In this document: piece by piece, positions 18,780 through 35,424 of the stretch
Layout: each line of letters opens with the position of its first letter
How positions within the stretch are numbered: position 1 is the first letter of the stretch
DNA from: Candidatus Cloacimonadota bacterium
GTDB taxonomy: Bacteria; Cloacimonadota; Cloacimonadia; Cloacimonadales; TCS61
Assembly (NCBI GenBank): GCA_021736135.1
Contig: JAIPGO010000031.1
Location: 1 to 37,086 of the forward strand
Length of the DNA: 37,086 bases
Reading direction: 5' to 3'
Made by a program: the position numbers and the translations under genes
Notes under the pieces: generated by a model
Database searches by the model: none
The model's input: the letters and a program-made list of their open reading frames with translations, nothing else
Told to the model about the DNA's origin: nothing

Positions 18780-19820
18780 ATGAAAAGGTTAGTATTTTTA
18801 TTAATCGTTTCACTGATACTGGTATTATTCACCGGTTGTGCACAGGCTAATGATCCTGAAGAGAATGGTGATACCGTATATCTGAATCTGGTTGCTACTT
18901 ATGAGACGGAAGCTTACGTTGAAGAATTTGACGTGACGGATGATTACATATATATAGCTGAAGATATGGCAGGATTCTCAATCTGGGAACAGGCATCAGG
19001 GAATATGCTTGCTCGTTATGATTCGACTCTGGTTGGCAATATGAGACTGATCAAGGTTTTAGAAGAGAGTAATCTTCTCGTTGTATTTAACAAATATGGC
19101 GGCACTTACGGCGGGACATTGTTTTTTGACATCACTGCCAGGGATAATCCTCAATATCTCATGTCTATTCCCGGCAATAATGCAGAATTGAGCTGTCTAC
19201 AAGTCTGGTCTATAAACGCTGACCGCTTTCGTTTCAGTTGGGTAAATTTAGGAAGTCAGTATTATACAGGGGAATTTGTGAGAATACCTAATTCCTTGTA
19301 TTGGGCGCAGGACGGGCTAACATTTGAAGAAAAGCTTTTCGGATTTAATATGGCAGGTTTTGATGAAGACCTGACAAACGAGCGGTTATATTGTGCCTCC
19401 GAAGAGCTGGGAATGAAGATTGTGGACAGAGCCGATTTTAGTATAGTAAACAATATTTCGACAATTGGTCAGACAATTGCTGTCAAGGTTGTTGACAATG
19501 TTGCATATCTTGGTAACAGGGAAGAGGGTATTCAATTGCTTGATATCAGCGATGAATTGAATCCGGTGGAAATATTTAACTATGATACTACAGGTCTGGC
19601 ATCTGATATTGCTGTAAGCCCTGAATTAAACGTTTTTGCCCTAGCTTCGACGAGTGGGGGCATATATCTTTTCCGGGGACCGGATGGCGTTATTGAAAGA
19701 CTGCAGCGGATAGATGACAGCGAGATAGGCTACACTTATAAAGTTAAGATTCACGGAAATTATCTTTATGCAGGAACCCGTTATGGGATTTATAAATTTG
19801 AAATTATTAATTTAAGATAA
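18780..19820 (+). CDS. LVIVD-repeat-like propeller lipoprotein
   Basis: 346 residues with a lipoprotein signal: MKRLVFLLIVSLILVLFTGC, Cys20 after LFTG. The mature part is a series of about 40-residue blades with V-x-D-x-x-Y-I-Y-I-A, DNVAYLGNREEGIQLLDISDELNP, VNVFALASTSGGIYLF-like patterns. These match the LVIVD beta-propeller repeat that is common in surface proteins. It likely sits on the envelope as a binding or scaffold protein; no enzyme motif is seen. GGAGG lies nine bases before the ATG. It is the first gene of a four-gene run; the next gene begins 16 nt after its stop, implying coexpression with three type IX-sorted proteins. Confidence 0.75.
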   Translation: MKRLVFLLIVSLILVLFTGCAQANDPEENGDTVYLNLVATYETEAYVEEFDVTDDYIYIAEDMAGFSIWEQASGNMLARYDSTLVGNMRLIKVLEESNLLVVFNKYGGTYGGTLFFDITARDNPQYLMSIPGNNAELSCLQVWSINADRFRFSWVNLGSQYYTGEFVRIPNSLYWAQDGLTFEEKLFGFNMAGFDEDLTNERLYCASEELGMKIVDRADFSIVNNISTIGQTIAVKVVDNVAYLGNREEGIQLLDISDELNPVEIFNYDTTGLASDIAVSPELNVFALASTSGGIYLFRGPDGVIERLQRIDDSEIGYTYKVKIHGNYLYAGTRYGIYKFEIINLR

Positions 19821-19836: not shown

Positions 19837-22800
19837 ATGAGAAGATTATTTTTACTGGTATTATTGGCAACATTTGCGCTATCCTGGAGTCAAGTTGAAT
19901 GGCTGGAAGACGGTATTCCGGTACGCCAGGGTGTTAATATTGAATGGTTTCGCAGCGCTATATCCTTAGAGGATGGCGGTTGTGTTTTTACGTGGAGCGA
20001 TACGCGTCTTGGTGATCGTGATGTTTTTGCCCAGAGAGTAGATAGCGATGGCAACATGTTATGGGGAGTAGAAGCTGCGATGGTAAATGGCGAGATCAAT
20101 CGTCAGGAAGACATAGTTGTGATCAACGGAAATGATGATGAGACGATTTATGCCTGGGTGGAATTCCGGCATGAAGATGCAGGTGATATTTATGCCCAGA
20201 AACTTGATGGTAACGGCAATATTATGTGGGCTTCTGAGGGAGTACCCTTATGTCTGGTTGAAGATATACAAATATCAATTAACATTGTAAGTGATGCTTC
20301 TGGCGGAGCTTACATTATCTGGCTTGATGACCGCAATCCTGGTGGCTCTGATATTTATGGTACGCATATTTTAAGTGACGGCAGCATTGCAGAAGGCTGG
20401 GATACTGACGGCAATGCGATAATTGCCATGGATGGCAATCAAACCGGTCATACTTTCTGGGAAGACGGTGCTGGTGGAGCTATAGTAGTATGGACGGATA
20501 CCCGTAATGCTTCCAACCAGGATTTATATATGCAGCGGATAAGCTGGGATGGTACCTTGCTCTGGGATACAAATGGCACCTTGTTATGTGGTGCACCCCA
20601 GATACAGGAATCAGCAAAAATCAGTCCCGACGGTACAGGAAACTTCATAGTAACCTGGTGGGATAAGCGTAATGAAAACGATGGTGATATATATGCAAAT
20701 CGGATTGATCTTGATGGCAACATTTTGTGGGCAAACGACCTGGTAATATATCAGGGATTCGGTATTCAGCGTAATCCCAGGATCACGGAATCATCAGATA
20801 CCGGAGCTATAATTACCTGGGAAGATGGTCGTTATGTCTCAGAATTCAAAGACATATTCGTGCAGAAGGTAACAACAAACGGGACGTTATCCTGGGCAAC
20901 CGCAGGTGAAGTGGTTTGTGTGGAAGTAAATGACCAGTTAAATCCGCGTCTGGTTAGTGATGATAGCGGGGGTTGCTGGATCATCTGGGATGATGGCAGA
21001 AATGACGGTCATCCTAATGAAGAGATATATATTCAGCATTTTAATAGCGATGGTGATATTCAATTAGCTGATAATGGTCAGATCATATGTGATGCTTTTG
21101 GTGAACAGTTTTCACCTCTGATCAAGAAAGATGGAAATGGACAGATGTATTTATCCTGGGGAGATAACCGTGATGGGTCCACGGGACTTTATGTTCAGTT
21201 GATTGATGATGATGGTAATGATCTGCTGATCGATAACGGGCAACTGATCTATTATGGTCTCTGTGGTGATGCGCTTTCAGCCCAGATATTCTGTGATGGA
21301 GATAAATCCTTATTGCTTTGGGAAGATACGCGTTTTGCTACAATTGCTACTCAAATTTATATGCAGGTGATGGATGAAAACGGGGATTTTGATCTAATTG
21401 AAGACGGAATTGCAATCACGGATACAACAGGAAGCGACCAGGTGAATTTTGACGCAGTGCTTAATGACGCAGGTGCAGCAGTATCCTGGGTGGAATTACG
21501 TGGTTTAACCAATACCGTATATGCCCAGCTTGTGGATATGGAAGGAAATCATCATTGGGGAGATCAGGGACTGCAGCTAAATACTCATGAGTCAGAGCAG
21601 TCAGGCGTAAAGGTTTCGGAAGATAATGGTTATTATTATTTTGGCTGGTCAGACCGTTTCGGTTCCTGGCCCGATCCAATAGTCAGCCAGGTTTGTGCCC
21701 AGAAAGTTGATGTTAACGGGAATAAGTTATGGGGAGACGAAGGAATATCTGCCGGAAATCCCGATTTGCAGGAAGATGTATTAATGGACGTAGTAGGCAG
21801 ATATTTTATCTGGAAGCTTGATGACTGGCCGGATGCTCAGATATATGCCAGTTATTTGACGGAAGATGGTGATACATCTCCCGGCTGGCCTGAAAACGGT
21901 TTATTAATTTGCGATGCACCACCTTACAGTCAGCAGAATGCTCAAGGTGTCATCACTGATGAAGGTTTACTGGTCGTCTGGGAAGATCTTCGTAATTCAA
22001 CACCGGAATATGCTAATAATGATCTTTATGGTCAGTTAATTACAGAAAGTGGTGAATTTCTCTGGGAAACCGATGGCGCTCCACTGGTTACTATGGCAAA
22101 TGATCAGGTGGAATTCAAACTGAAATATTACCAGGATTATATATATCTGATCTGGGGAGATTTCCGTAATGGTACAGATTATGATATCTATATGCAGAAA
22201 TTTGACCTGGACGGAGTAGAACAGTGGGAAGAAGGCGGGGTGGCAGTGGTTGCCAAACCTCTTGACCAGGCAAATGCAGAGTTTACATTTTACAATGATC
22301 ATATAGTGGTTTACTGGGATGATGTGGATGGCGAAGCAGGAATGGACCTCTTTATGCAAATGTTCAATCTGGAAGGAGAACTCGTCGGAGGTTATCCACA
22401 GAACGGCGAGAATATCTGCCGCGCCATTAAAAACCAGAGCGCTCCCGCGGCTGTCGTTGATGATGACGGGTATTCTTATGTGATCTGGAGTGATTTCCGT
22501 TCCAGTGGCAAAACAGATATTTATAATATATATGCCCAGAAACAGAAAAACTATCCGGATACGATTGCGGTTGATGATGAGCTGGATGATCAGGTGATGA
22601 TCAATATGAATAATTATCCTAATCCTTTCCGCAAAGGAACAGTACTGTCATTTTCTTTACAAAGTGAACAGTTAATAGATGCCAATGTAACCATTTATAA
22701 TACAAAGGGTCAGAAAGTTCGCGCTTTACCGATCGAGAATAACCGTGTTTATTGGGATGGAAAAGATGATTATGGCAGGCTGACAGCAACCGGCGTTTAT

Positions 22801-22863
22801 ATGTATCGCTTGAACAGCAAGTATTTCAAGAGCCAGCCGGCGAAAATGATCAGGATGAAATAG
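19837..22863 (+). CDS. Large secreted W-x-D-x-R repeat protein with type IX sorting domain
   Basis: 1008 residues, signal peptide MRRLFLLVLLATFALSWSQ, SD AAGGAGA. The body is about 16 repeats of 50-60 residues. Each has a core like IIWLDDRNPGGSDIYGT or VTWWDKRNENDGDIYANRIDLDGN: hydrophobic strand, W-x-D-x-R, a polar loop, D-I/L-Y-x-Q/N, then an S/L-D-G-N turn and a W. Asp and Asn in the loops suggest calcium-stabilised beta-propeller blades. The last 85 residues are the Por/type IX sorting domain (NNYPNPFRKGTVLSFSL, YNTKGQKVRAL, TATGVYMYRL, KMIRMK). The protein is probably displayed on or released from the cell surface, as a binding or adhesion factor; function otherwise unknown. Confidence 0.8.
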   Translation: MRRLFLLVLLATFALSWSQVEWLEDGIPVRQGVNIEWFRSAISLEDGGCVFTWSDTRLGDRDVFAQRVDSDGNMLWGVEAAMVNGEINRQEDIVVINGNDDETIYAWVEFRHEDAGDIYAQKLDGNGNIMWASEGVPLCLVEDIQISINIVSDASGGAYIIWLDDRNPGGSDIYGTHILSDGSIAEGWDTDGNAIIAMDGNQTGHTFWEDGAGGAIVVWTDTRNASNQDLYMQRISWDGTLLWDTNGTLLCGAPQIQESAKISPDGTGNFIVTWWDKRNENDGDIYANRIDLDGNILWANDLVIYQGFGIQRNPRITESSDTGAIITWEDGRYVSEFKDIFVQKVTTNGTLSWATAGEVVCVEVNDQLNPRLVSDDSGGCWIIWDDGRNDGHPNEEIYIQHFNSDGDIQLADNGQIICDAFGEQFSPLIKKDGNGQMYLSWGDNRDGSTGLYVQLIDDDGNDLLIDNGQLIYYGLCGDALSAQIFCDGDKSLLLWEDTRFATIATQIYMQVMDENGDFDLIEDGIAITDTTGSDQVNFDAVLNDAGAAVSWVELRGLTNTVYAQLVDMEGNHHWGDQGLQLNTHESEQSGVKVSEDNGYYYFGWSDRFGSWPDPIVSQVCAQKVDVNGNKLWGDEGISAGNPDLQEDVLMDVVGRYFIWKLDDWPDAQIYASYLTEDGDTSPGWPENGLLICDAPPYSQQNAQGVITDEGLLVVWEDLRNSTPEYANNDLYGQLITESGEFLWETDGAPLVTMANDQVEFKLKYYQDYIYLIWGDFRNGTDYDIYMQKFDLDGVEQWEEGGVAVVAKPLDQANAEFTFYNDHIVVYWDDVDGEAGMDLFMQMFNLEGELVGGYPQNGENICRAIKNQSAPAAVVDDDGYSYVIWSDFRSSGKTDIYNIYAQKQKNYPDTIAVDDELDDQVMINMNNYPNPFRKGTVLSFSLQSEQLIDANVTIYNTKGQKVRALPIENNRVYWDGKDDYGRLTATGVYMYRLNSKYFKSQPAKMIRMK

Positions 22864-22909: not shown

Positions 22910-25189
22910 ATGAAAAAAATAATAATATGGGCAGCAATACTGTTAGCTTTGCCGTTGTGGTCTCTTGATCCGGTTTATCACACTAATGAAGAAATATTTG
23001 CAGAACTTGATTCTCTGCAGCAGATGTTCCCGGATTATATGCTGGTGCGTGTACTGGGATTTACCGGTACGGATAGTCTGCCGGTATATGCAGTAAAAAT
23101 ATCCGATAATGTTACTGTGGATGAAGATGAACCGGCAGTTCTGTTTTTAGGTCAGTGTCATGCGGAAGAAGTGATGGGCGTGGAGATCAGTATGGCTTTG
23201 ATCAATGAACTTTTAATGAACGGCGGAAACCCTTATAATGTCTGGAGAAACAACCTGGAGATCTGGATCGTTCCAACCCACAATCCGGAAGGATTGCAGG
23301 TGGTTACGGACAGTTGGGATACTACTTATCGCAAGAATAAGACGGATAATAATGGTAACGGTTTATTTGATTTTGTCCCCGGACCTGGTAATGATGACGA
23401 TGGGGTGGACCTGAACAGAAATTATGATTTCAACTGGGTACATGGTGATACTCTGAATGCTCAGGGCAACGCTGAATTTAATGATTATTACAAAGGACCA
23501 GCACCCTGGAGTGAACTGGAGGCACAATATCTCCGTCAGTTATGTGATGAGCAGCATTTCATTTATTCCATTGCCTGGCATTCCTCGCGGACGGGTAACC
23601 TTTCTGAGAAGGTGTTTTATCCCTGGAATTGGGAAGAGAACAAACCCTGCCCTGATGAAGAATTCAATGCCGGTATGGCATCTACAGTGGCTCACCTGAT
23701 TGAGAAGGAAACAGGTGGAGCATATTATGAACCATCTGGAACTTTAAATAGAAATCCTAAAGCACATGACTGGTTTTATAATGAGTATGGCACGCTACAG
23801 TTTGAAATTGAAGCAGGAACAGCAAATCTGCAGCCGGGACCTGCGCTTTTACAGGATACGATAAGTCGTTGTATTAATGCACCTCACTATATGATGAACC
23901 GGGCACTCGGATATGACAACGTGTCCGGAGCTATGCTTACCGGGCATGTAACGAATGCAGTTACCGGAGAACCACTGGTTGCCGAATATTTAATTGAAGA
24001 GAGAAAAGCTCTCTCTTTTACTCCCCGGATGACAGATGAACTTTATGGGCGTTTCTGGTGGCAGTGCTCCCCCAACACATACACCTTGCACCTGCGTCAG
24101 AAAGGCTATGCGGATTCTGTTATCACCGTTACGGTTAATGGTACTATGCCTACAACTCGGAATCTTGCCCTTATGCCATTAGCTGAAGCGAATATCAGCG
24201 GCAGCATCAATGCCGGTGATGAAGAAGTGAAAATAATCGTTCATCATGACATGGGTGATGAAGAATTCCTGTTTCCGGCTGGAAGTGAGTCATACTCCAT
24301 CGACTGGTGGGAAGGTCAGGTTGATTTTATCGTAGCAGCAGAAGGTTATACACCAAAATATGTAAATTATGATCTTCAAGCAGGTGAAAATGTGATCAAT
24401 ATTGAGCTGCAGCCGGAAATAGTAATCTTCAATGAAGACTGGTCAGGAGATTTTTCTCAATGGAGCGTGGAAGGTGACTGGTATATTGGCTATGACGAAG
24501 ACGCTGGAAGAAATTTTGCCAAGGATACTCCTAATGATTTCTATGCTAATGAATCTGAGGTTGTGCTTACCACATCTCATTTCTTCAATCTATTTGGTGG
24601 CAGCGAACTGAGCCTGATAGTTGATCAGAAATACCATACAGAACATGAAGAAGATTTCTGCATTGTAGAAATTTCGCTTAATGACGGCAATAACTGGATA
24701 GAATTATCCTCAATATCCGGCGTAAATGACTGGGATACAAAATACTATGATCTTTCCAGTTATGCAGATAACTATATGTGGATACGATTTCGCCTGATTA
24801 CGGATGATACAGTGGATGATCCCGGCTGGTGGCTGGGTAACATCAAACTTGTATCAGCTACAATGGTTGATAATGATGAAGATGAGCTGGTCTCAGTTAC
24901 AAAACTGCGGCAAAGCTATCCTAATCCCTTTCATTTGAGTGGTGAAAGATCAGGTGAATGCCGCATAGATTTTTCACTGGCAACACCGAGTACTATTTCC
25001 CTGAATGTCTATAATGTAAAAGGTCAGTTAATTAAGAAATTGACGGAAGAATTTTACGAACAGGGAGATCATACCCTGTTCTGGAACGGTTTTGGTGCTA
25101 ATGGGCATCCTGTGGCAAGCGGTGTGTATTTTTATGTACTGAGCACAGGAAGTGCAAAATTCCATCAAAAGATGTTAATAATTAAATAG
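22910..25189 (+). CDS. Secreted M14-family zinc carboxypeptidase with type IX sorting domain
   Basis: 759 residues with a signal peptide (MKKIIIWAAILLALPLWSL). The M14 catalytic domain covers about residues 20-335. The zinc ligands are H84 and E87 (CHAEE) and H224 (IAWHSS). Substrate-binding Arg is R170 in LNRNYDFNW, NPEGL is present, and the catalytic Glu is most likely E301 in FEIEAGT. A carboxypeptidase-regulatory-like beta domain follows (about 343-420, GHVTNAVTGEPLVAEYLI). A jelly-roll-like domain follows it (about 505-655, EDWSGDFSQWSVEGDWYIG), and then the YPNPF sorting domain. It removes C-terminal residues from peptides outside the cell. It ends eight bases before the C25 gene, so the two are likely cotranslated and act together in protein breakdown. 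Confidence 0.92.
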   Translation: MKKIIIWAAILLALPLWSLDPVYHTNEEIFAELDSLQQMFPDYMLVRVLGFTGTDSLPVYAVKISDNVTVDEDEPAVLFLGQCHAEEVMGVEISMALINELLMNGGNPYNVWRNNLEIWIVPTHNPEGLQVVTDSWDTTYRKNKTDNNGNGLFDFVPGPGNDDDGVDLNRNYDFNWVHGDTLNAQGNAEFNDYYKGPAPWSELEAQYLRQLCDEQHFIYSIAWHSSRTGNLSEKVFYPWNWEENKPCPDEEFNAGMASTVAHLIEKETGGAYYEPSGTLNRNPKAHDWFYNEYGTLQFEIEAGTANLQPGPALLQDTISRCINAPHYMMNRALGYDNVSGAMLTGHVTNAVTGEPLVAEYLIEERKALSFTPRMTDELYGRFWWQCSPNTYTLHLRQKGYADSVITVTVNGTMPTTRNLALMPLAEANISGSINAGDEEVKIIVHHDMGDEEFLFPAGSESYSIDWWEGQVDFIVAAEGYTPKYVNYDLQAGENVINIELQPEIVIFNEDWSGDFSQWSVEGDWYIGYDEDAGRNFAKDTPNDFYANESEVVLTTSHFFNLFGGSELSLIVDQKYHTEHEEDFCIVEISLNDGNNWIELSSISGVNDWDTKYYDLSSYADNYMWIRFRLITDDTVDDPGWWLGNIKLVSATMVDNDEDELVSVTKLRQSYPNPFHLSGERSGECRIDFSLATPSTISLNVYNVKGQLIKKLTEEFYEQGDHTLFWNGFGANGHPVASGVYFYVLSTGSAKFHQKMLIIK

Positions 25190-25197
25190 GAGGAATT

Positions 25198-28100
25198 GTG
25201 AAAAGAATACTGCTATTAACCGTTTTAAGCTTGCTGGTTACCAGCCTGAGTGCCGCGGTTATTTATAATAATAGTAACAGCAGCCTTGATATCTCTGTGA
25301 TTAATGACGGTGGATTGAGTATAGAAGGGGATGATCTATACCAGGTAATTGCCTTTCCGGCAACTGATGTAAGCCTGGAGATCATAGAAAGTGAAACAGT
25401 ATTATTCAGCGCTGCGGGAAATGAACTGGAAAGAAGCAGTCAGCTTGCTGAAAGTAGAGTAGAACTGGCTGAAACCATGGTTATGCGGGAAATGGTCATG
25501 CATCGCATCAGGATCAGAATGAATGAAAATATTAATGGAAATCAATCTGTGATCGATAATCTGACCCTGCGCTTGACTGCAAACAACGAAATGCTGCATT
25601 TTAACGGTGTTTCTCCAGCGTTTTTACCCATCTATGAGAAAATGGCTGATAATTATCAGACTTCGTATCTGCGCAATTTATCCGTGTTGCCATCCAGGAT
25701 GCTGATCATTTCACATAGTAATCTTAATAATCTCAATTATTTTACAGCCTGGAAAAACGAAAGGGGCATTGCAACTGATGTAGTAATGAAATCAGATATA
25801 GGAAATACAACGGCGGCAATCAAGGGTTATATACAGAATGTTTATGAGACGGAAGAGTTCCCGCCTGATTATCTTCTTTTAATAGGAGATGTGAACGGCA
25901 ATTTCACGCTACCGGCTTATTATCATACTACAGAGAATGACGTTACTGATCATCCCTATACTTTGCTGGCTGGAGATGACTATCTGCCCGAAATGATCGT
26001 CGGCAGGATGTCCATCGATCAACAGAGTGGATTTGACACCATCATTTCCAAAGTACTCAGTTATGAAAAAACACCCTATATGACAAATCCGGAGTGGTTT
26101 GATAATATTCTGCTGGTCGCAGGAAATTATAGCGATCTACCACCAACACCCACAACCCCTTTAACTACCATGAGATGGCTGCAGGAAAAAGCTGTCGATT
26201 ATGGGTATGATGGTTATACCGAAGTGTATTACTGGCCTGATGGCGGATATTATGACTACCCCGGAACTTCGGAGATTATTAATGCCATAAATAATGGAGT
26301 CGGTGTTGTGGCTTATCGAGGCTGGGGTAATGCCTGGGGCTGGAATTTCCCCTATTTTCATACTCAGAATATTGAAGAATTATCAAATGGAAATTATTTA
26401 CCTATTATGACTTCAATAGTCTGTAATACAGGAGATTTTGCTAATACCAACGTGGATCCCTGTTTTGGAGAATTATGGCTGACTGCCGGAAATGCATCTT
26501 CTTTCAAAGGTGGAGTTGCCTTTGTGGGCCCATCTGATCTACATACAAGTACTCATTATAACAATGCCATCTTTGCCGGATTTTATCAGGGATTGCTGGA
26601 CGAAGGCATACATTCCTTTGGTTCTGCTGTGTTAAGGGGCAAATGGGAAATTTACCAGAGTTTCCCCAATGACCATGTTTCCGGCGGAGATGTGGAATTC
26701 TATTATTATGTCTATAATATTTTAGGTGATCCATCCTTGAATATCTGGACTCGGACTCCGGAAAGTATGAGTTGCGAATTACCTTCTGAAATTAACCTGG
26801 GACAGAACTTCCTGGACATTTATGTTCCGGAAATCAATAATGGTATGGTAACTGCACGCAAAGGAGATGAGTTCATTGTCAGTGATTTTGTGAGAGATCA
26901 CCAGGCATTACTATATTTTGATGCAGAAACGACGGGCACAATTACTGTGACTATAACAGCAGTAAATCACTTGCCCCTGATAATGGAAGTTGATGTGGAG
27001 AGAGTTGGAATTGATCCGGAAATTACAGACATTGCTGCTCAAGATGAGATTATTGCCGGTGAAGAAGTAGCAATAGATATAACCTTGATCAATTCAGGAA
27101 CAGAGAGCTCAGAATTTATAGCTTACCTGGAAGAACAGACCGGAATGGCAAGTATTCAGGAAGAAAGCTTAAATTTCGGAACTTTAGCTGAGGGTGAGAG
27201 CTCTACAGCTACCTTCCATATGGATATTAGCGGTTCCTGCCCGGAAGGCAGCGAACTTTCTCTGCTAATGACTTTTTTTGATCTGGATAGTGAAATTAAA
27301 TTCCCGCTGACAGTAAGTAACCTTGTATTCCAGGTTTCTAATGTAATAGTTAATGATGCCAATGGAGTTCTGGAACCGGGTGAAACCTCACAAATTACCG
27401 TTACGGTTGATAATATCAGCAGTATGGGAGCAGAGGGATTAACTGCCAGCATCATTCCGGCAACAACAGCCTTAACGGCAACTATAGCTTCTGCTACTCT
27501 GGGTAATGTTACTGCCGGCTCTTCCGGAGACGCTGTTTTTGAACTAAGCGCGGCTCCAGGCAGTTTTGACGGTCGCCAGGCAGCGATATACCTGCAACTG
27601 GAAGATAGCACAGGCAGACTCTATGAAACTTCATTTACCATTACAATTGGTATTGTTGATAACACTGATCCCACGGGTCCATGTAGTGCCGGATATTATG
27701 CTTATGATAATTTTGATACCGGTTATGAAGAAGCACCGGACTATTTCTGGCAGGAAATAGATCCTGAAGAAGGTGGTAACGGTTCCGTTATTCTAATGAC
27801 TGATGATCAAACCGAATCTATTCCTTTACCCTTCAATTTTACTTATTTTGATACCGAATATGACAGTATATCCATATGTTCAAACGGTTGGATTTCCTTT
27901 GAAACCACCTGGCAGGTATATTTTAAAAACTGGTCAATTCCTGCTGCTTTGGGACCAAAAGCAATGGTCTCTGCATATTGGGATGATCTGCGTGGTTTTA
28001 ATGGGGGAGTTGAACCTTTAAGGCTTTGCTATTATTATGATGAAACTCAAAATTATTTCATCATTGAATGGAATGATACTTATAACCGTGCAGATGATAT

Positions 28101-28665
28101 GTCTGTTGAAAAATTTCAGATAGTTCTTTATGATCCGGTTGAATTTCCGACTGAAAGCGGAAACGGAGTTATCCAGGTAAATTATCATACGGTAAATAAT
28201 CCTGATTCAGGTAGTAATTTCTCCACTGTCGGAATTGAAGATTATCATCATATTGATGGCGTGCTTTATACATTCGCAGATCAATATCCGGCATCGGCTA
28301 CAACCTTACAGAATGGTCTTGCCATTAAATTTACTACCGAAGCACCGGATGATTTCACCGGTAATGATGAAGAAAATCTTGTGACTGGCTTGCCGGTACT
28401 TAATAATAATTATCCTAATCCCTTCAATCCGGAAACAACATTCAGTTTTAGTATAACGGAAACAGATGAGGTGGAACTGAAAGTCTATAACATTAAGGGT
28501 GAACTGGTTAAAACGGTGGTTAGTGGTAATTTAGCAAAAGGCGATTACAGTTATATATGGCGTGGAGACGATGATCAAGGTCGCAGTGTGGCTAGCGGTG
28601 TATATTTCTATCAATTGAAAAATACTCGACTAAGCACTACTAAAAAATGCGTTCTTATGAAATAA
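25198..28665 (+). CDS. Secreted C25 (gingipain-like) protein with type IX sorting domain
   Basis: 1155 residues, GTG start after AGGAGGAATT, signal peptide MKRILLLTVLSLLVTSLSAA. A propeptide-like region precedes the C25 domain (about 165-520), which has RMLIISHSNLNNL, DYLLLIGDVNG, EMIVGRMS and NYLPIMTSIVCNTGDF. The catalytic Cys is C409. The gingipain YxGHG histidine position reads YRGWG here (Trp376). The 33-residue spacing to Cys matches what I recall for RgpB (211/244). It may therefore be inactive or use another base. Downstream are Ig/CARDB-like beta domains (about 600-815), a domain beginning GYYAYDNFDTGYEEAPDYFW (about 825-1050), and a consensus sorting domain (NNYPNPFNPETTFSFS, ASGVYFYQL). 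The last gene of the operon, followed by a strong hairpin. Confidence 0.85.
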   Translation: MKRILLLTVLSLLVTSLSAAVIYNNSNSSLDISVINDGGLSIEGDDLYQVIAFPATDVSLEIIESETVLFSAAGNELERSSQLAESRVELAETMVMREMVMHRIRIRMNENINGNQSVIDNLTLRLTANNEMLHFNGVSPAFLPIYEKMADNYQTSYLRNLSVLPSRMLIISHSNLNNLNYFTAWKNERGIATDVVMKSDIGNTTAAIKGYIQNVYETEEFPPDYLLLIGDVNGNFTLPAYYHTTENDVTDHPYTLLAGDDYLPEMIVGRMSIDQQSGFDTIISKVLSYEKTPYMTNPEWFDNILLVAGNYSDLPPTPTTPLTTMRWLQEKAVDYGYDGYTEVYYWPDGGYYDYPGTSEIINAINNGVGVVAYRGWGNAWGWNFPYFHTQNIEELSNGNYLPIMTSIVCNTGDFANTNVDPCFGELWLTAGNASSFKGGVAFVGPSDLHTSTHYNNAIFAGFYQGLLDEGIHSFGSAVLRGKWEIYQSFPNDHVSGGDVEFYYYVYNILGDPSLNIWTRTPESMSCELPSEINLGQNFLDIYVPEINNGMVTARKGDEFIVSDFVRDHQALLYFDAETTGTITVTITAVNHLPLIMEVDVERVGIDPEITDIAAQDEIIAGEEVAIDITLINSGTESSEFIAYLEEQTGMASIQEESLNFGTLAEGESSTATFHMDISGSCPEGSELSLLMTFFDLDSEIKFPLTVSNLVFQVSNVIVNDANGVLEPGETSQITVTVDNISSMGAEGLTASIIPATTALTATIASATLGNVTAGSSGDAVFELSAAPGSFDGRQAAIYLQLEDSTGRLYETSFTITIGIVDNTDPTGPCSAGYYAYDNFDTGYEEAPDYFWQEIDPEEGGNGSVILMTDDQTESIPLPFNFTYFDTEYDSISICSNGWISFETTWQVYFKNWSIPAALGPKAMVSAYWDDLRGFNGGVEPLRLCYYYDETQNYFIIEWNDTYNRADDMSVEKFQIVLYDPVEFPTESGNGVIQVNYHTVNNPDSGSNFSTVGIEDYHHIDGVLYTFADQYPASATTLQNGLAIKFTTEAPDDFTGNDEENLVTGLPVLNNNYPNPFNPETTFSFSITETDEVELKVYNIKGELVKTVVSGNLAKGDYSYIWRGDDDQGRSVASGVYFYQLKNTRLSTTKKCVLMK

Positions 28666-28673
28666 AAAATGAC

Positions 28674-28701
28674 AAAGGGGGAGCTTTTCTGCTCCCCCTT
28701 T
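28674..28701 (+). terminator. Hairpin between the C25 gene and pgsB: terminator or attenuator
   Basis: AAAGGGGGAGC pairs perfectly with GCTCCCCCTTT (11 bp, 6-nt TTTTCT loop). The 3' tail is TTT then A7, so the U-tract is short. It ends 13 nt before the pgsB ATG and next to its AAAGGG ribosome binding site. It could end the secretion operon or modulate readthrough into the pgs operon. Confidence 0.65.
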
Positions 28702-28714
28702 AAAAAAAGGGAAT

Positions 28715-29875
28715 ATGTTAGGATTAATAGTTGGATTATTGTTATTAATCGGCTGGGGTGTGCATGAATACTGGGACCATCGCAGGAATCGCAGTAAGAT
28801 TCCGGAGATAGTTCATATTAACGGCACACGGGGTAAATCGAGTGTAACACGTCTGATTGCTGCCGGTTTACGAGCCGGTGGGAATAAGGTTATGGCAAAA
28901 ACCACCGGTTCTGCTCCCCGCCTTATATATCCCAGCGGAAGGGAAACTCCTATTGTGCGGCATTTTGGTTCAAACATCAGGGAACAGCTGAAAGTGATCA
29001 AGTTTGCTTCCAGAAGAAACATAGATTTCCTCGTGCTGGAATGCATGGCCGTTACTCCCGAATATCAATGGGAAACAGAACATCGCATGGTGCAGTCAAC
29101 TGTTGGCGTTATTACCAATTCCCGGCTTGATCATCTGGATGTGATGGGTCCGGGATTACGTAATGTAACTCTTTCCATGTGCAATACAATTCCTCATAAG
29201 GGAATAGTTTTTACTTCCGAAGACAAAGTGTTTCCATTGATGAAAAAAGTTGCAGATCGCGAACATACCGAATTCCGCTATGTGGACAGCAGTCATATCA
29301 CAGATGAGGATATGCGGGGATTTAACTGGATTGAGCACAAGGATAACGTTGCCCTGGCGCTGGCAGTTTGTGAGCGTTTCAATATTTCTCGTGAGATAGC
29401 TTTACAGGGTATGTATAATTCCATACCCGATATTGGGGCTACAGAAATATTTTTAAATAAGGTAGCAGGCAAGGAACTTTATTTTGCTCATTCCTTTGCC
29501 GCTAATGATCCCGATTCAACAATTGTTTTGATCAATTATATTCGCAGTATTTACTCCGATATCACTTCTGTGGCGATTGTATTAAATACTCGTGCTGACC
29601 GGATGTATCGCAGTAAACAATTGACGGAAATGCTCGAGAAAGAAGAATTTGACGGCTTGTTCCTGATCGGTGACCAGGAGTTGACGATACATAATTACGC
29701 CACAGGTCACGGTATCCCCGCGGAAAAGATTTTTCCCCTGGGCTGGTGTAAAGGCGATGAGCTGGTAAAAGAAATTTGTACTCTGGATGCCGAAAAAATT
29801 CTGGTTTTCGGTATTGGAAATATTGGCGGGAATGGTGGTCCCATTGTAGATTATTTCAAAGCGAGGAAATGCTGA
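28715..29875 (+). CDS. pgsB: Poly-gamma-glutamate synthase subunit PgsB/CapB
   Basis: 386 residues, the usual PgsB/CapB length. It has an N-terminal membrane anchor (MLGLIVGLLLLIGWGVHEYW), then the Mur-ligase-like ATP-binding loop VHINGTRGKSSVTRLI (about residues 33-48), the conserved ECMAVTPEYQ (about 108-117) and TNSRLDHLDVMG (about 133-144). Near the C-terminus are LNTRADRMYRS and GNIGGNGGPIV. It is the ATP-dependent amide ligase that polymerises glutamate through its gamma-carboxyl on the cytoplasmic face of the inner membrane, working with PgsC. First gene of a six-gene operon; its TGA overlaps the pgsC ATG by one base. Confidence 0.95.
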   Translation: MLGLIVGLLLLIGWGVHEYWDHRRNRSKIPEIVHINGTRGKSSVTRLIAAGLRAGGNKVMAKTTGSAPRLIYPSGRETPIVRHFGSNIREQLKVIKFASRRNIDFLVLECMAVTPEYQWETEHRMVQSTVGVITNSRLDHLDVMGPGLRNVTLSMCNTIPHKGIVFTSEDKVFPLMKKVADREHTEFRYVDSSHITDEDMRGFNWIEHKDNVALALAVCERFNISREIALQGMYNSIPDIGATEIFLNKVAGKELYFAHSFAANDPDSTIVLINYIRSIYSDITSVAIVLNTRADRMYRSKQLTEMLEKEEFDGLFLIGDQELTIHNYATGHGIPAEKIFPLGWCKGDELVKEICTLDAEKILVFGIGNIGGNGGPIVDYFKARKC

Positions 29876-30330
29876 TGTTTGAAGTTGCAATTGGTTTAGG
29901 GGTATTAGTAAGTTTATTTTTCCTGGAAACTTTCGGTACTACGGCTGGAGGAATTGTTGTTGCTGGCTATATTGCCATGTTTCTTCACCAGCCCTGGACG
30001 ATTCTGGGTTCTCTGGCAATAAGTTTTGCCGTATATCTTATCGTAAAACTACTGGGTAAAGTTATGTTTATCTATGGTCGCCGTCGCATGGTTATATCAA
30101 TCCTGCTCGGTTTTATTTTTGGCTGGCTGGTGAGAACTTATGGTTTATATACCAGTATTCCCGCCGATTATTCAGTAAATGTTATTGGTTATATTATTCC
30201 CGGTCTTATTGCGAATTCGATGGCAAAGCAGGGTATAACCAGAACTGTTACCGTTATGTTCCTTGCTGCTGTGATAGTACGGCTTATGGTCAATATTATC
30301 TTCCGCGGCGAGTTAATATCAATATTGTAA
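29875..30330 (+). CDS. pgsC: Poly-gamma-glutamate synthase membrane subunit PgsC/CapC
   Basis: 151 residues. The start is the ATG at 29875 in the TGATG overlap with pgsB; the frame is open further upstream but only through pgsB. It is hydrophobic with about four to five membrane helices (e.g. FEVAIGLGVLVSLFFLETFGTTAGGIVV and VMFIYGRRRMVISILLGFIFGWLV). The FGTTAGGIVVAGYIA and GYIIPGLIANSMAKQGITRT segments match PgsC/CapC. It forms the minimal synthase with PgsB and anchors it in the inner membrane. Nine bases separate it from the next gene. Confidence 0.95.
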   Translation: MFEVAIGLGVLVSLFFLETFGTTAGGIVVAGYIAMFLHQPWTILGSLAISFAVYLIVKLLGKVMFIYGRRRMVISILLGFIFGWLVRTYGLYTSIPADYSVNVIGYIIPGLIANSMAKQGITRTVTVMFLAAVIVRLMVNIIFRGELISIL

Positions 30331-30339
30331 GGACTTAAT

Positions 30340-31446
30340 ATGTTCATTCCGAGTGCAAAATCAAAAATAAGTTTATTAGCTTTATTAGTAGTAGCTATGC
30401 TGCTGTTTGTGTGGGTTAATAATTCCCGTATGTTTCTGAAAGAAAAGGATTACGATAAAAAACTGGAAGCTGCCCTTTTAATGAAAAAAGCTTATGATGC
30501 AGTTAAACAGGATCGTTTGGAATGCGGTGCCTATTGTGATCTGGAAAACGATCCCTATCAGAGCGGTGTTATTGGTCCAAAGGAAACGCCGATCACTACT
30601 GACCGCGGTTCTCTGGATGGAAAGCTTACCAGTCTGAATCCAAATTATGCCGCTGTGATGGTGTCTCTCATGAAAAGAGCGCATCTTAATAAGGGAGATC
30701 GCGTTGCCATCAGCTGCACTGGTTCCTATCCTGCAATTAATCTGGCTGTATATGCTGCTGCCACTGCGCTTGAGCTTAAAGTAGTCCCCATCAGTTCCGT
30801 GGGAGCGTCCATGTTCGGAGCCACTGATCCTGATTTTACCTGGCTCGATATGGAGACCCTGCTTTATAATCAGGGAATTTTCCCTTTTAAATCTGTTGCT
30901 GCATCCATAGGTGGCGGACGTGATTTAGGAAGAGGCTTAAACCTGCTGGGCAGAAACATGATCGTTGAAGCAATCAAACGAAATAGTACCGAACTGGTTC
31001 AGGAAGAAAGTCTGGAAGCTAATATTGAAAAGAAAATGACAATTTATAACAGCAGATTCCCGAAATATGACGCCTACATTAATATCGGTGGTGGATTGTC
31101 ATCTATAGGCAGTTCGATCAACGGACGTCTTATTTCTGACGGATATCACCGGACTATTAATAATAATAACCTGCCGCGAATTGGTACAATGTTCTTGTTT
31201 GCAGAACAGGGTACTCCTATAATTCATCTATCCGATTTTCTTGATCTGGCAAGAAGATTTGAATTGCCGGAAACCCCGGTACCATTACCTGAACCAGGCA
31301 CAGGTTCAGTTTTTGTGAATGAACGTTACAATGTCACGATTGCTATTATTTCGCTGGTGATCCTGTTAGCTTTGATCTCCATAGTAGTTTTCTTTGATCA
31401 CAGCCAGATGAAGCTTCGTGATGAAGAGGTTAACCGTCGGGCATGA
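30340..31446 (+). CDS. pgsW: Poly-gamma-glutamate system protein PgsW
   Basis: 368 residues with an N-terminal membrane helix (about 9-27) and a C-terminal one (about 330-352) around a large soluble domain. The domain contains GVIGPKETPITTDRGSLDGKLTSLNPNYAAV, then AISCTGSYPAINLAVYAAATALEL, SSVGASMFGATDPDFTWLDME and INIGGGLSSIGSS. This is the PgsW-type poly-gamma-glutamate system protein found with pgsBC in many Gram-negative genomes. Its biochemical role is not established. The soluble part may lie outside the cytoplasm. Its last four bases (ATGA) contain the start of the next gene, implying translational coupling. Confidence 0.88.
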   Translation: MFIPSAKSKISLLALLVVAMLLFVWVNNSRMFLKEKDYDKKLEAALLMKKAYDAVKQDRLECGAYCDLENDPYQSGVIGPKETPITTDRGSLDGKLTSLNPNYAAVMVSLMKRAHLNKGDRVAISCTGSYPAINLAVYAAATALELKVVPISSVGASMFGATDPDFTWLDMETLLYNQGIFPFKSVAASIGGGRDLGRGLNLLGRNMIVEAIKRNSTELVQEESLEANIEKKMTIYNSRFPKYDAYINIGGGLSSIGSSINGRLISDGYHRTINNNNLPRIGTMFLFAEQGTPIIHLSDFLDLARRFELPETPVPLPEPGTGSVFVNERYNVTIAIISLVILLALISIVVFFDHSQMKLRDEEVNRRA

Positions 31447-32303
31447 AAAGCAGACTGAGAGAGAGAATTCTATTCGTTATCTGCTTTGTAATTCTATTCA
31501 TTGTAATGGTGCAGGCAAACCAGAAGAACAGAATTTATTATCTTTTTAATAATAATACCGGTAAATTATATCGCTATTATCATCTGATGCCAGGAGAAAA
31601 ATATTCGGGATCTATTGTTGATGCTGATTCACTAATTGTTTACAGTAGATTGATCCTGGATGCAGATATTCCCGCAGCCTATTCTTATCAGTTTTCCACT
31701 GGTAACTTTGAGGATATTGTTACCAGGAAAATATCACCCAGCAGTTCTTCACGTGGGGTTTCAGGCTCAAAAGTCTCTGCCTGGAACAGCTATAAATATT
31801 TTCCGATGCCGGAAGATAAGAAATTCAATATCATTAATGATTCAGACAGGGAATTACTGGTGAAAGTTACTTTACCTGACCAGAAGACTTACCGCAAAAA
31901 AACTGAATTTATTGCTTATCCGCCTGACAGGGCTGCAGATAGCATTCAGCTTTTGAACAAGGATAATGATTATACTTATTACTTGGCGGATAAAGATGGG
32001 ATTTCAATGCAGCTCGAAGGACCTCTGCTCCTGAAGGTGATCAGCCGGCTTATTGTTAAAGATGTAGAATTCCTCTCTTATAGCTGGGCTGCCTACCTCG
32101 ACGAAGAGGAAATCCTCACCGTGGATGCTGCTGCTCCATATTCTAAAACCTGCCTTGCCGACAGCTCAAGTATTGTTACCCGCGGTAAAGTAAATATTTT
32201 GAAAGTTCCTGCCGGTATCCATACCATAAAAATCATGGATTTAGAACCGGATGAGATCATATACCGCTTTTATCTTAATAAAACTGCCATAGGAAATAAA
32301 TAA
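31443..32303 (+). CDS. Unknown exported protein of the pgs operon
   Basis: 286 residues; I do not recognise the family. It has an N-terminal hydrophobic segment (about 8-25: ILFVICFVILFIVMVQA) that is either a signal peptide or an anchor. The rest is polar and strand-rich (YYLFNNNTGKLYRYYHLMPGEKYSG, FNIINDSDRELLVKVTLPDQKTYRK, KVNILKVPAGIHTIKIMDLEPDE), compatible with a periplasmic beta-sandwich. Start and stop overlap both neighbours (ATGA with pgsW, TAATG with the next gene), so it is made together with them. Given its place between the inner-membrane synthase and the barrel gene, a periplasmic link or polymer-handling role is inferred. Confidence 0.7.
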   Translation: MKSRLRERILFVICFVILFIVMVQANQKNRIYYLFNNNTGKLYRYYHLMPGEKYSGSIVDADSLIVYSRLILDADIPAAYSYQFSTGNFEDIVTRKISPSSSSRGVSGSKVSAWNSYKYFPMPEDKKFNIINDSDRELLVKVTLPDQKTYRKKTEFIAYPPDRAADSIQLLNKDNDYTYYLADKDGISMQLEGPLLLKVISRLIVKDVEFLSYSWAAYLDEEEILTVDAAAPYSKTCLADSSSIVTRGKVNILKVPAGIHTIKIMDLEPDEIIYRFYLNKTAIGNK

Positions 32304-33334
32304 TGAAGAGATTTTTTTTTACAATCCTTTTTCTGCTCTTTGCCTTGCTAACTCAGGCAAAGGGAATTAGTTGGGAAAGTGAATTCGACATCGACCTCAC
32401 TTATAATTCTAATATTCTCAATTACTCTGAAAATGATCGTGATGCCTTTGAAAATAATATTAATCCTGAGAAATTCCTGATCGAATCTCTCGATGATATG
32501 ATTATGGGTTTTAAGTATAACCTTAAATCGCGATATTACAGTTTCGACGGGCATACTCAGATCATCAATCTCGGCATTAACTATAAAAAATACCTGAATA
32601 ATGAGATTAAAGATGATATCAATGTGCAGGCAGGAATCAAACAGTATTTCTCTCCAAAACTGATTACATCTCTGAGTTACAGTTTCTATCCGGAAATTTA
32701 CCTGCGCCAGTACAAAAGCGTAATCGATAATGAATATCATAATTATGAATACGCTAAGAACGGATATTCGGCAGAACTGGAATGGAAGGCTTTAAAAAAC
32801 CTTGATCTTCGGTTAAATGCGGATTATTCACAGCTTTATTTCAATGAGTGGTTTACAGAGTATGACGCTGACGTTATAACAGCAAACTGTTACCTGATCT
32901 GGAAACTCAATCCTCGCCTTACGACTGAATTCCGTTATGCGTTCAGAATTGCAACTGCTGATGCGGAGGAAGCTTATCAGCCTGCTTCTGTTTCTGTGAT
33001 CAAGGATGGCTCTTTTGACGGCAACATTATTGGCGTTAAACTTAAATTTCGCCGCTTCCTGGCTGATTATACGCTGAATCTGGGATATCGCCTGGAAGAT
33101 AAATTTTACTCCTCTGGTTTTGAGGGTGATGATTATCACATTGAGCGGGACGATTATATTCACACAGGCTCAATGAGCATCTATGTCCCTCTGGCGAAGA
33201 ACCTTAATATGGTTCTGCATGCGGAATATGAAGAACGTGAAACCCGCTCCCCATTTACCAATGTGATTCGCGATAAGGAATACAATACCTGGAATAGCGG
33301 TATTTCCTTCGCTTATGACCTTAAACACAGATAA
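32303..33334 (+). CDS. Probable outer-membrane beta-barrel protein of the pgs operon
   Basis: 343 residues with a signal peptide (MKRFFFTILFLLFALLTQAKG). The mature chain alternates polar and hydrophobic or aromatic residues in many roughly ten-residue strands (WESEFDIDLTYNSNILNY, INLGINYKKYL, LITSLSYSFYPEIYLRQY, LTTEFRYAFRIAT, YTLNLGYRLEDKFYS, SISFAYDL-like end), as in outer-membrane barrels. There are acidic and asparagine-rich turns. No named family is recognised. Coupled by TAATG to the gene before and overlapping the next by 20 bases. In this operon it is the natural candidate for passage or anchoring of poly-gamma-glutamate at the outer membrane; this is inference. Confidence 0.7.
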   Translation: MKRFFFTILFLLFALLTQAKGISWESEFDIDLTYNSNILNYSENDRDAFENNINPEKFLIESLDDMIMGFKYNLKSRYYSFDGHTQIINLGINYKKYLNNEIKDDINVQAGIKQYFSPKLITSLSYSFYPEIYLRQYKSVIDNEYHNYEYAKNGYSAELEWKALKNLDLRLNADYSQLYFNEWFTEYDADVITANCYLIWKLNPRLTTEFRYAFRIATADAEEAYQPASVSVIKDGSFDGNIIGVKLKFRRFLADYTLNLGYRLEDKFYSSGFEGDDYHIERDDYIHTGSMSIYVPLAKNLNMVLHAEYEERETRSPFTNVIRDKEYNTWNSGISFAYDLKHR

Positions 33335-33977
33335 AAACTCTCTGCCGGAAGTAATTGACAACTCCTGGCGGGAATTCCTCGGTTTTCATGATGGTTCTCT
33401 ACTGCTTAGTAAAAGAAATGCTGCCAGTAAAATTGTGGTTGGTGTACCTCATCACGGACCCCGCAGTTACTCACGTATGCTGTGTGACCGTTCTGCAGAT
33501 GAAAATGCCGGCTACATCGGTTGTTATCTGGCAGAAATACTACCTGCTTCGCTCATCGTGGCTAACCGCTATTTTTTTGATCCCAATAAATCGGAATCTT
33601 CCGATTATTTCAAGTTCATTAAAGCCGGCTTGCCAAATCTGCTGATTGAAATTCACGGGCATGGCGCCAGGAACGCAGTCTATGACATTGAAATCTCTTC
33701 CGGTCCTGAGGATGAAGATTATGCCAAAGCCTTTTCTCAAAGTCTTTCTCATAAAATGAAAAAGTCTCCTGACCTGAAAAAGTTCTCTATCTCAGGAAAT
33801 TATAATAAAATATATTTTACTGCTCAATATTCCTGTACGGTTACTGATTCACGCTGGCATACTCTGCATATTGAGCTCCCCCCGGCTTTAAGAAAACAAC
33901 CGGATTCACCTTATCCACCTGCAGCCGGGTTTCATTTAATGGATATGATTGCTGAATTAATTAATTCTCAGGAATGA
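33315..33977 (+). CDS. N-formylglutamate-amidohydrolase-like zinc hydrolase of the pgs operon
   Basis: 220 residues, no signal peptide at this start (ATG 33315, inside the previous gene). Motifs follow the N-formylglutamate amidohydrolase order: VPHHGPRSYSR (H46, H47), a DRSADENAGY segment, IVANRYFFDPNKS, LLIEIHGHGARN (E112, H114, H116), DIEISSG, and LHIELPPALRK (E187). These residues would bind zinc and a glutamyl substrate. The family cleaves amides on glutamate, so a gamma-glutamyl hydrolase that trims, releases or recycles the polymer is plausible. If the protein is cytoplasmic it might instead act on degradation products. It is the last gene before a strong terminator. Confidence 0.72.
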   Translation: MTLNTDKNSLPEVIDNSWREFLGFHDGSLLLSKRNAASKIVVGVPHHGPRSYSRMLCDRSADENAGYIGCYLAEILPASLIVANRYFFDPNKSESSDYFKFIKAGLPNLLIEIHGHGARNAVYDIEISSGPEDEDYAKAFSQSLSHKMKKSPDLKKFSISGNYNKIYFTAQYSCTVTDSRWHTLHIELPPALRKQPDSPYPPAAGFHLMDMIAELINSQE

Positions 33978-33999: not shown

Positions 34000-34027
34000 A
34001 GCCCCCGTTTTGCGAGGGCTGTTTTTT
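34000..34027 (+). terminator. Bidirectional rho-independent terminator
   Basis: AGCCCCCG, loop TTTTG, CGAGGGCT (one mismatch), followed by GTTTTTT and preceded by an A8 run. It therefore works for the pgs operon on the plus strand and for the convergent LruC lipoprotein gene on the minus strand. Confidence 0.85.
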
Positions 34028-34044
34028 ATTATTTATAATTCTTA

Positions 34045-35388
34045 TTATTCACCGACAGGCGCATTCTGATCTGCTACTGTCATATCTCCACGATCCAGAA
34101 TGTAACCTTCCGAATAATCGTCATCTGGATGTGGCTGCCACCAGTTGTCAAAAATTCCTTGAGTTCCTGCAAAATATGATTCCAATTCCGGATAGGCAAG
34201 TATCACATCAGCCTTCTCACGCGGATATTCCAGTGTTCCTTCCAGCTTCAGTCCCCAGGAAAGTCCATCAACCGTCTTGAATGCCGTGTCAATATAAAGC
34301 GGATCAGAGAGGCCAGATAAAGGAGTATTGTCGTCTCCAGTACCAAAAAGACCAAACTGATCAAAATTGCTGGTATAGATATCTCCGGGTAAATGTATCT
34401 CATAACCGGGAATACCGTCTAATGTGACATAAGGATTGAACGAATTCAGATTCAAACTGGGACTGACAGGATTAAAGGATATTAACTGCTGATAATCTAT
34501 CCGTATTTTGATGGATACCGGATCTGTCCACGGCGCTTCATTGAAAGTATTCAACGCTAAAAAAGTGAAGGGCAGAGGCATTACATCATATACATGGTCA
34601 AAATACTTGAAAAATAACTGGTGATTGAACGTATCCCAGATCACGTCTGTGCCATAAGCTGCATGCACTTCCTCAGATGTCATTGGCAATTGATTGCCGT
34701 CCGCATCATAAGCAGAAAAGGTGATCACATCTCCCAGTGATGTATTCGGTGCAGCATCTGATTCAAACATTACTCTGAATCCATTATTATACGTAGCGCC
34801 GGAAGCTATCACTGTTGCCTGCAATTCCACATAACGCAGATAATTGGATTCATAGCGCAGCTTGCCCCAGGTTTCCACTACCATGTCGTTAAAATCATAA
34901 TCACCCTTATTGGGCCAGTTGTCTTCATACATCAAGGTTATAACTGAATTCGTGCCGGGAACGTACAAAGTGCCGTTTGCCCGTGTATCACGGCTGCCGC
35001 CGTTTACTACCAGTGTCTTGTTCACTTCGTTGCCTGTTACAGGTACGCTTATTCTCTCACCATCACATTCCACGAAAACTGAAGAAGATGATTCCGGTAA
35101 GGTTATCTTTATATTAACCTTTCCTATCTCATTAGTTACTGCCGTAAATGCCAGGTTGTTTTCTGTCTTGTATAAAGAAATTTCTTTTCCCTGAACAGGG
35201 ATACCTGCTGCATCCACTGTCGTGATCGTTACTTCCGTCTCACTCGTGAAATCCCAGTCAAAACCGGCAGGTATCTCCACATCCTGTATGGATTGCGCAT
35301 GTCCTGATGGCTTGGTGGAACTGTCAGTACAGCTGGCAAAGAAAGCTAACACCGGAACTGATAAGACTATTATTCTCATTATTTTCAT
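34045..35388 (-). CDS. LruC-domain lipoprotein
   Basis: 447 residues. The start chosen is the ATG at 35388, six bases after GGGAG; the frame extends four codons to a GTG that overlaps that ribosome binding site. Lipoprotein signal MKIMRIIVLSVPVLAFFASC with Cys20. An Ig-like carboxypeptidase-regulatory/Big-type domain (about 40-130, VTITTVDAAGIPVQGKEISLYKTENN) is followed by the LruC domain, whose hallmark MYEDNWPNKGDYDFNDMVV lies near residue 155. LruC proteins are envelope lipoproteins described in Leptospira and common in Bacteroidota-type genomes; their role is unknown. The Asp-rich core suggests calcium binding. It is convergent with the pgs operon and divergent from comB. Confidence 0.85.
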   Translation of the reverse strand: MKIMRIIVLSVPVLAFFASCTDSSTKPSGHAQSIQDVEIPAGFDWDFTSETEVTITTVDAAGIPVQGKEISLYKTENNLAFTAVTNEIGKVNIKITLPESSSSVFVECDGERISVPVTGNEVNKTLVVNGGSRDTRANGTLYVPGTNSVITLMYEDNWPNKGDYDFNDMVVETWGKLRYESNYLRYVELQATVIASGATYNNGFRVMFESDAAPNTSLGDVITFSAYDADGNQLPMTSEEVHAAYGTDVIWDTFNHQLFFKYFDHVYDVMPLPFTFLALNTFNEAPWTDPVSIKIRIDYQQLISFNPVSPSLNLNSFNPYVTLDGIPGYEIHLPGDIYTSNFDQFGLFGTGDDNTPLSGLSDPLYIDTAFKTVDGLSWGLKLEGTLEYPREKADVILAYPELESYFAGTQGIFDNWWQPHPDDDYSEGYILDRGDMTVADQNAPVGE

Positions 35389-35424
35389 TATTTCTCCCAC
35401 AGAATACTTCTTTTCTTACAAGAC

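Follow-up and report, generated by a model that had tools for sequence, protein, structure and literature searches.

We describe a poly-gamma-glutamate (PGA) locus, pgs, in a Candidatus Cloacimonadota bacterium (assembly GCA_021736135.1, 4.14 Mb, 98% complete), which sits on contig C19 (JAIPGO010000031.1); the 37,086 nucleotides (nt) of this contig constitute the window, that is, the whole stretch of DNA analysed. With a probability of roughly two in three, we consider the locus to be a five-gene variant of the PGA synthase adapted to two-membrane (diderm) cells, which has its own outer-membrane route and has gained a lineage-specific sixth gene. In such a system, PgsB and PgsC would polymerise glutamate at the inner membrane, as is established for the family, and PgsW, with a two-helix anchor and a periplasmic main domain, would take the place held by CapA in Bacillus operons. 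The product of the fourth gene, g4, a predicted periplasmic protein of two similar domains, would then bridge PgsW to the dedicated β-barrel encoded by the fifth gene, g5, through which PGA would leave the cell, or at whose outer mouth it would be held on the cell surface.

All six open reading frames lie on the forward strand, and re-reading the sequence bore out the coordinates and junctions proposed in an initial annotation of this DNA, as well as its naming of the first three products, each of which scores above a curated NCBIfam cut-off. PgsB (CapB; 28715–29875), the Mur-ligase-type PGA synthase, carries a P-loop (GTRGKS, residue 37) and matches TIGR04012 with 400 bits (E 9e-120; cut-off 222.7). 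PgsC (CapC; 29875–30330), the integral membrane subunit, matches TIGR04011 with 116 bits (E 1.1e-33; cut-off 96.45) and PF14102, and the inner-membrane protein PgsW (30340–31446), encoded next to pgsBC, matches TIGR04332 with 294.7 bits (E 7.6e-88; cut-off 100). The PgsBC core, a P-loop ligase PgsB beside PgsC, is present, and its polymer in this organism would be PGA. The genes are tightly packed: the pgsB stop overlaps the pgsC start at 29875 as TGATG (an alternative in-frame ATG for pgsC lies at 29869), a 9-nt gap separates the end of pgsC at 30330 from the start of pgsW at 30340, pgsW and g4 (31443–32303) share ATGA at 31443–31446, g4 and g5 (32303–33334) meet in TAATG at 32303, and g5 overlaps the sixth gene, g6 (33315–33977), by 20 nt (33315–33334). 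These overlaps suggest no more than coupled translation, short of the fixed protein proportions proposed initially.

The product of g5 has no NCBIfam and no significant Pfam match. Its AlphaFold2 model is a 14-stranded barrel of high confidence (predicted local distance difference test, pLDDT, 94.5; predicted template modelling score 0.87), and the protein has the hallmarks of an outer-membrane barrel, namely a signal peptide, an even number of strands and alternation of hydrophobic outward-facing with polar inward-facing residues. The modelling therefore confidently predicts an outer-membrane β-barrel, upholding the initial annotation on this point. The closest solved folds found with Foldseek are OmpG, CymA and FadL. 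The barrel is oriented by its strand connections, which are short turns at one end and long loops at the opposite end. Its lumen, as assigned by strand parity, is Arg-rich (K+R+H 22%, D+E 14%), with R135, K/R267, R282 and R312 facing inwards. Conservation is strongly skewed towards the outer mouth (Mann-Whitney p 5e-6): 26 of 27 strongly conserved positions fall in extracellular loops or the outer third of the strands, and none at the periplasmic end. Neither N37 nor S42 varies in any of the 31 alignment rows, R282 is constant in all rows reaching that position, and R135, D188 and D235 are kept in 30 of 31. Since the loops of porins are usually their least conserved part, the outer mouth of the modelled g5 is probably the working site of the protein, serving as a gate or an active site.

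Natural gene fusions place g4 next to both of its neighbours. The protein starts with a signal peptide or anchor, followed by a tandem repeat of one domain of ~125 residues, presumably a β-domain; it has no NCBIfam match, and Pfam gave only scattered weak matches to β-domains, none significant. In most loci g4 stands between pgsW and g5. Five genomes, three with Krumholzibacteriota in their titles, have it fused to PgsW (~670–686 residues), and three Cloacimonadota genomes have it fused to g5 (~640 residues); because of these two kinds of fusion we place g4 physically between the inner-membrane PgsW and the outer-membrane g5, which, together with its internal repeat, makes it a putative periplasmic adaptor. 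In the PgsW-g4 fusions, the two PgsW helices are followed by a short Arg-rich stretch, a signal-peptide-like helix and the g4 domains, an order that, under the positive-inside rule, would put both the PgsW domain and g4 in the periplasm; a joint MAFFT alignment of this fusion with separate PgsW and g4 rows superimposed g4 on PgsW. PgsW, g4 and g5 would form a complex, and g5, in view of its genomic context and lumen charge, may pass the polymer across the outer membrane.

Within Cloacimonadota, genes one to five form a conserved unit in the constant order pgsB-pgsC-pgsW-g4-g5; g6 and its 20-nt overlap lack such conservation. TIGR04332 was detected in 50 of 59 relatives of the same order and the g5 profile in 52, a co-occurrence that is confounded by genome completeness; the two genomes with g5 and without pgsW are cut at contig ends. 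No genome has more than one strong g5 match, which nearly always lies directly after pgsW. As a separate observation, a protein of ~100 residues with a very acidic tail is encoded after g5 in 29 loci of other Cloacimonadota families (including L037, L046, L049, L053, L056, L058-L060 and L073), often with a gene for a gpsA-like dehydrogenase next in line.

Beyond this phylum, scanning named genomes with the PgsW alignment yielded 80 loci, to which we applied g4 and g5 profiles built from Cloacimonadota only; the taxonomy of metagenome-assembled genomes is that of their records and may be mistaken for a few of them. g4 and g5 were found beside pgsW in Neomarinimicrobiota (Fidelibacterota), Zixibacteria, Krumholzibacteriota, Latescibacterota, WOR-3, Fermentibacteria, Eisenbacteria, Ignavibacteriota, Bacteroidota, Planctomycetota, Electryoneota and KSB1. 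The pair thus travels with pgsBCW through about a dozen phyla beyond Cloacimonadota, so that the association with pgsBC proposed initially for the last three genes holds for g4 and g5, g6 being sporadic. g4 lies on the same strand as pgsW in 86 of 86 loci and g5 in 84 of 84, with median spacings of −4 nt between pgsW and g4 and −1 nt between g4 and g5. Two of the g4 calls (L067, L122) are false, an APH-type kinase having been included by position; they still figure in the strand and tree counts, whereas the spacing medians exclude them. All 14 genomes selected for having the pair contain a single g5, which adjoins pgsW. Conversely, neither gene was found with these profiles at the pgsW loci of Bacillota, Fusobacteriota, Spirochaetota, Myxococcota, Desulfobacterales, Atribacteria or Armatimonadota, and g5 is absent genome-wide from 21 of 24 tested genomes that have pgsW without an adjacent g5; among the three exceptions, one KSB1 genome (G141) carries a pgs locus of each type. 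Presence of the barrel changes only 4 times on the PgsW tree (shuffled mean 24.5), on which the PgsW of the window groups with a Cloacimonadota sequence.

The pgsBCW loci of Bacillota, Fusobacteriota, Atribacteria and KSB1 that lack the barrel constitute a second kind (L077, L079-L081, L083, L088, L093, L095, L154). In addition to the B-C-W core, which they share with the locus described here, they have a tripartite ATP-independent periplasmic (TRAP) permease, an AstE-like protein of M14 type encoded next to pgsB and, often, also a protein resembling DUF6305; in Fusobacteriota and Bacillota, these stand in place of g4 and g5. In Cetobacterium, the AstE-like protein is succinylglutamate desuccinylase.

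Several observations weigh against an outer-membrane PGA route built from these five genes. Three Cloacimonadota loci (L068, L069, L073) have g5 after pgsW and no g4, and g5 lies apart from pgsW in G044 and in two genomes resembling the Fibrobacteres-Chlorobi-Bacteroidetes (FCB) group. None of the genomes that lack both genes exceeds 91% completeness, and the co-absence may therefore partly reflect missing sequence, and the lumen charge derives from strand parity rather than from coordinates. Fusobacterium is described in the literature as a two-membrane PGA producer, and the one locus read from its phylum, that of Cetobacterium, has no barrel; a barrel is therefore not a general need of diderms. 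Finally, a conservation peak at the outer mouth suits a gate, but it suits an enzyme too.

This last point leads to the strongest competing explanation, in which g5 is an outer-membrane enzyme laid out like OmpT, OMPLA or PagP, whose active site at the extracellular mouth fixes PGA to a surface acceptor or cuts it, in the manner of CapD or PgdS, while the polymer exits otherwise. The confinement of the conserved residues to the extracellular side and the near-invariance of the six residues named above are what such an enzyme would show; however, they form no recognisable catalytic set, the conserved Asp/Arg pairs may merely pin loops, the closest folds are passive channels, and the joining of g5 to g4 in one protein points to a connection in the periplasm; we regard an enzyme of this kind as unlikely. 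Less probable still is that g4 and g5 are general envelope or type IX secretion parts, without a role in PGA, that cluster with pgsBCW as surface genes. Cargo-like or surface proteins do recur nearby (a C25 peptidase, an LVIVD propeller and a 1008-residue protein with a C-terminal sorting domain), and SprA and PorU-like proteins are encoded in the genome. Yet the fusions join g4 to PgsW itself and to g5, the barrel label tracks the PgsW tree, and, contig breaks aside, the single-copy g5 was seen in no genome without pgs genes.

The initial annotation proposed instead that the last three genes together replace CapA, with g6 trimming the polymer, a model that we now consider highly improbable. 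In its favour, g6 overlaps g5 by 20 nt here and comes next after g5 in two genomes of a neighbouring genus as well, though nowhere else. However, members of the g6 family were detected in 7 of the 125 genomes from this phylum, beside pgs in 3 of them and otherwise at a distance, which excludes g6 as a conserved member of the system and marks it as a genus-level addition to the operon. It has no NCBIfam, no significant Pfam and no PDB match, and neither a signal peptide nor an N-terminal hydrophobic segment, so that it is probably cytosolic. Its motifs (PHH, ADEN, DPNK, EIHGHG and HIELP; PHH, DE, DxNK, EIHGH, DIEIS and HxELP being common to the seven homologues) recall N-formylglutamate amidohydrolase (FGase) in their spacing. 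Nevertheless, g6 matched neither the FGase profile PF05013 nor the PghP profile PF05908 up to E=10 within its own genome, in which a true FGase is encoded on contig C86 (68.9 bits with PF05013), and hhalign of g6 against the profile of that protein gave a probability of 0.1%. g6 was accordingly rejected as FGase or PghP, and the proposed trimming enzyme is not supported; our best guess is a cytosolic hydrolase.

The replacement of CapA by the last three genes fails on other grounds as well. No PF09587 (CapA/PgsA) domain was detected by Pfam among the operon proteins, so the locus does not have the Bacillus-type PgsBCA composition, and the initial remark that PgsA/CapA is missing holds for the operon. 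Elsewhere in the genome, two PF09587 proteins are encoded on other contigs, an exported one of 349 residues on C109 and one of 1128 residues with a type IX sorting domain on C105, and two Planctomycetota (L137, L139) have a CapA-domain gene just upstream of g5-B-C-W-g4 within one locus. Conversely, among the 59 relatives scanned, two pgsW-bearing genomes at least 95% complete have no PF09587 match (G017, G056) and four have only weak ones (G019, G041, G042, G052). Because nearly complete genomes with pgsW can lack a strong CapA match and the Planctomycetota loci have both, CapA is neither required by the system nor excluded from it. That PGA producers need PgsA/CapA, as had been assumed, is too strong in any case, since published models treat CapA as accessory (PMC5542703). 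As a side observation, a PF09587 protein of ~1000 residues recurs across the order (L004:4979-8365; L037:10333-13281; L038:9229-12174) and lies ~5 kb downstream of pgsW in two genomes; the one copy that was read bears a type IX sorting domain.

A better substitute for CapA than the last three genes would be PgsW, found both with and without the barrel. Its AlphaFold2 model is confident (pLDDT 93.7) and consists of two helices (residues ~9–28 and 332–367) and one large α/β domain that is likely periplasmic. The model matched no PDB fold at E≤1e-3, in a library for which the presence of a CapA structure was not established, and hhalign gave a probability of 0.2% against PF09587, indicating no sequence relation; on these two results, PgsW was rejected as a relative of CapA. 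PDB sequence searches with PgsW, g4, g5 and g6 returned nothing useful, and our literature search found no paper that calls the TIGR04332 protein PgsW.

Several proteins encoded around the operon would be cargo of type IX secretion (T9SS) or surface proteins. Directly upstream lies the gene for a peptidase of the C25 (gingipain) family that carries a T9SS C-terminal sorting domain (25198–28665, forward strand; PF01364, E 8e-61), homologues of which adjoin pgsW in 40 other loci of several phyla, including Neomarinimicrobiota, Krumholzibacteriota and Bacteroidota. It was rejected as the T9SS sortase PorU (77 bits, cut-off 420); a better PorU candidate on contig C3 reaches 365 bits, still under the cut-off. 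Further upstream are the LVIVD-repeat protein (18780–19820) and the 1008-residue protein (19837–22863), homologues of which directly follow g5 in Neomarinimicrobiota, with LVIVD proteins in other phyla too; these genes cluster with pgs in an order that differs between genomes. Two genes upstream of pgsB, an M14 zinc carboxypeptidase with a T9SS sorting domain (22910–25189) is possibly an enzyme acting on PGA; among the loci read, it stands beside pgs in one other only (L076). A 12-bp hairpin (28673–28702; consensus match only) in the gap between the C25 gene and pgsB ends 12 nt 5′ of the pgsB start, a distance that leaves no room for a promoter after it, and is possibly a terminator of the C25 gene or an attenuator of the operon. 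Downstream, a terminator-like hairpin (34000–34020; likewise a consensus match only) separates g6 from a convergent gene for a LruC-domain/DUF4842 protein (34045–35400, reverse strand), which scores above its family cut-off. Near the contig end, 35612–36313 encodes a protein of the 2-phosphosulfolactate phosphatase family (PF04029, 152 bits), for which all NCBIfam equivalog models stay below their cut-offs.

Compared with the Bacillus PgsBCA(E)/CapBCA(E) systems, the locus has PgsB and PgsC in the same order, both above equivalog cut-offs, followed by PgsW instead of PgsA/CapA and then by g4 and the barrel, which have no counterpart in published operon models (PMC3815933, PMC5542703). No outer-membrane component is named in the PGA literature and capsule models that we surveyed, and no description of g4 or g5 was found in a search that mostly lacked coverage of subscription journals. 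g5 shares a single 14-stranded barrel with the monomeric porins OmpG and CymA (template modelling score, on the target, up to 0.70), but at ~10% identity, and differs from them in its conserved extracellular mouth and in being a single-copy gene tied to pgsW. Synthase-dependent exopolysaccharide secretion (alginate AlgK/AlgE, BcsC, PgaA) combines an inner-membrane synthase, a periplasmic link and a dedicated outer-membrane barrel, an arrangement like the one proposed here. Unlike in those systems, with which no sequence relation was found, no tetratricopeptide-repeat scaffold was recognised here, the barrel has 14 rather than 16–18 strands and the product is a polyamide. A bolder extension, tentative and on balance doubtful, is that PgsW, g4 and g5 form an undescribed trans-envelope machine, the polyamide counterpart of synthase-dependent polysaccharide secretion, in which a gate or catalytic site at the outer mouth fixes PGA on the surface; about a dozen mostly FCB-related phyla would share this machine, which is possibly linked to the adjacent type IX-exported C25 proteases.

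PGA in Cloacimonadota is already known: PgsB was reported from 99% of the Cloacimonadota genomes of anaerobic digesters, a CapB-CapC-CapA-like operon was described for Ca. Digestoria delfossei and Cloacimonadota and compared with Gram-positive operons, and a PGA-like matrix around Ca. Cloacimonas fortuita was stained with 4′,6-diamidino-2-phenylindole (PMC13082233, ISME J, March 2026). The main text of that study mentions neither g4, g5 nor the outer membrane. It names the third gene CapA, whereas every Cloacimonadota locus read here has PgsW; by analogy with these loci, the third gene of the published operon may be pgsW and CapA a misnomer. The locus thus represents a known system in a variant form that is conserved across many phyla and includes two undescribed components, which probably serve in the export or display of PGA. 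These parts, g4 and g5, provide two specific, single-copy candidates for the passage of PGA out of two-membrane bacteria and marker families for finding PGA-producing diderms. Cloacimonadota are frequent members of anaerobic digesters, and it has been proposed that a PGA matrix helps syntrophy there.

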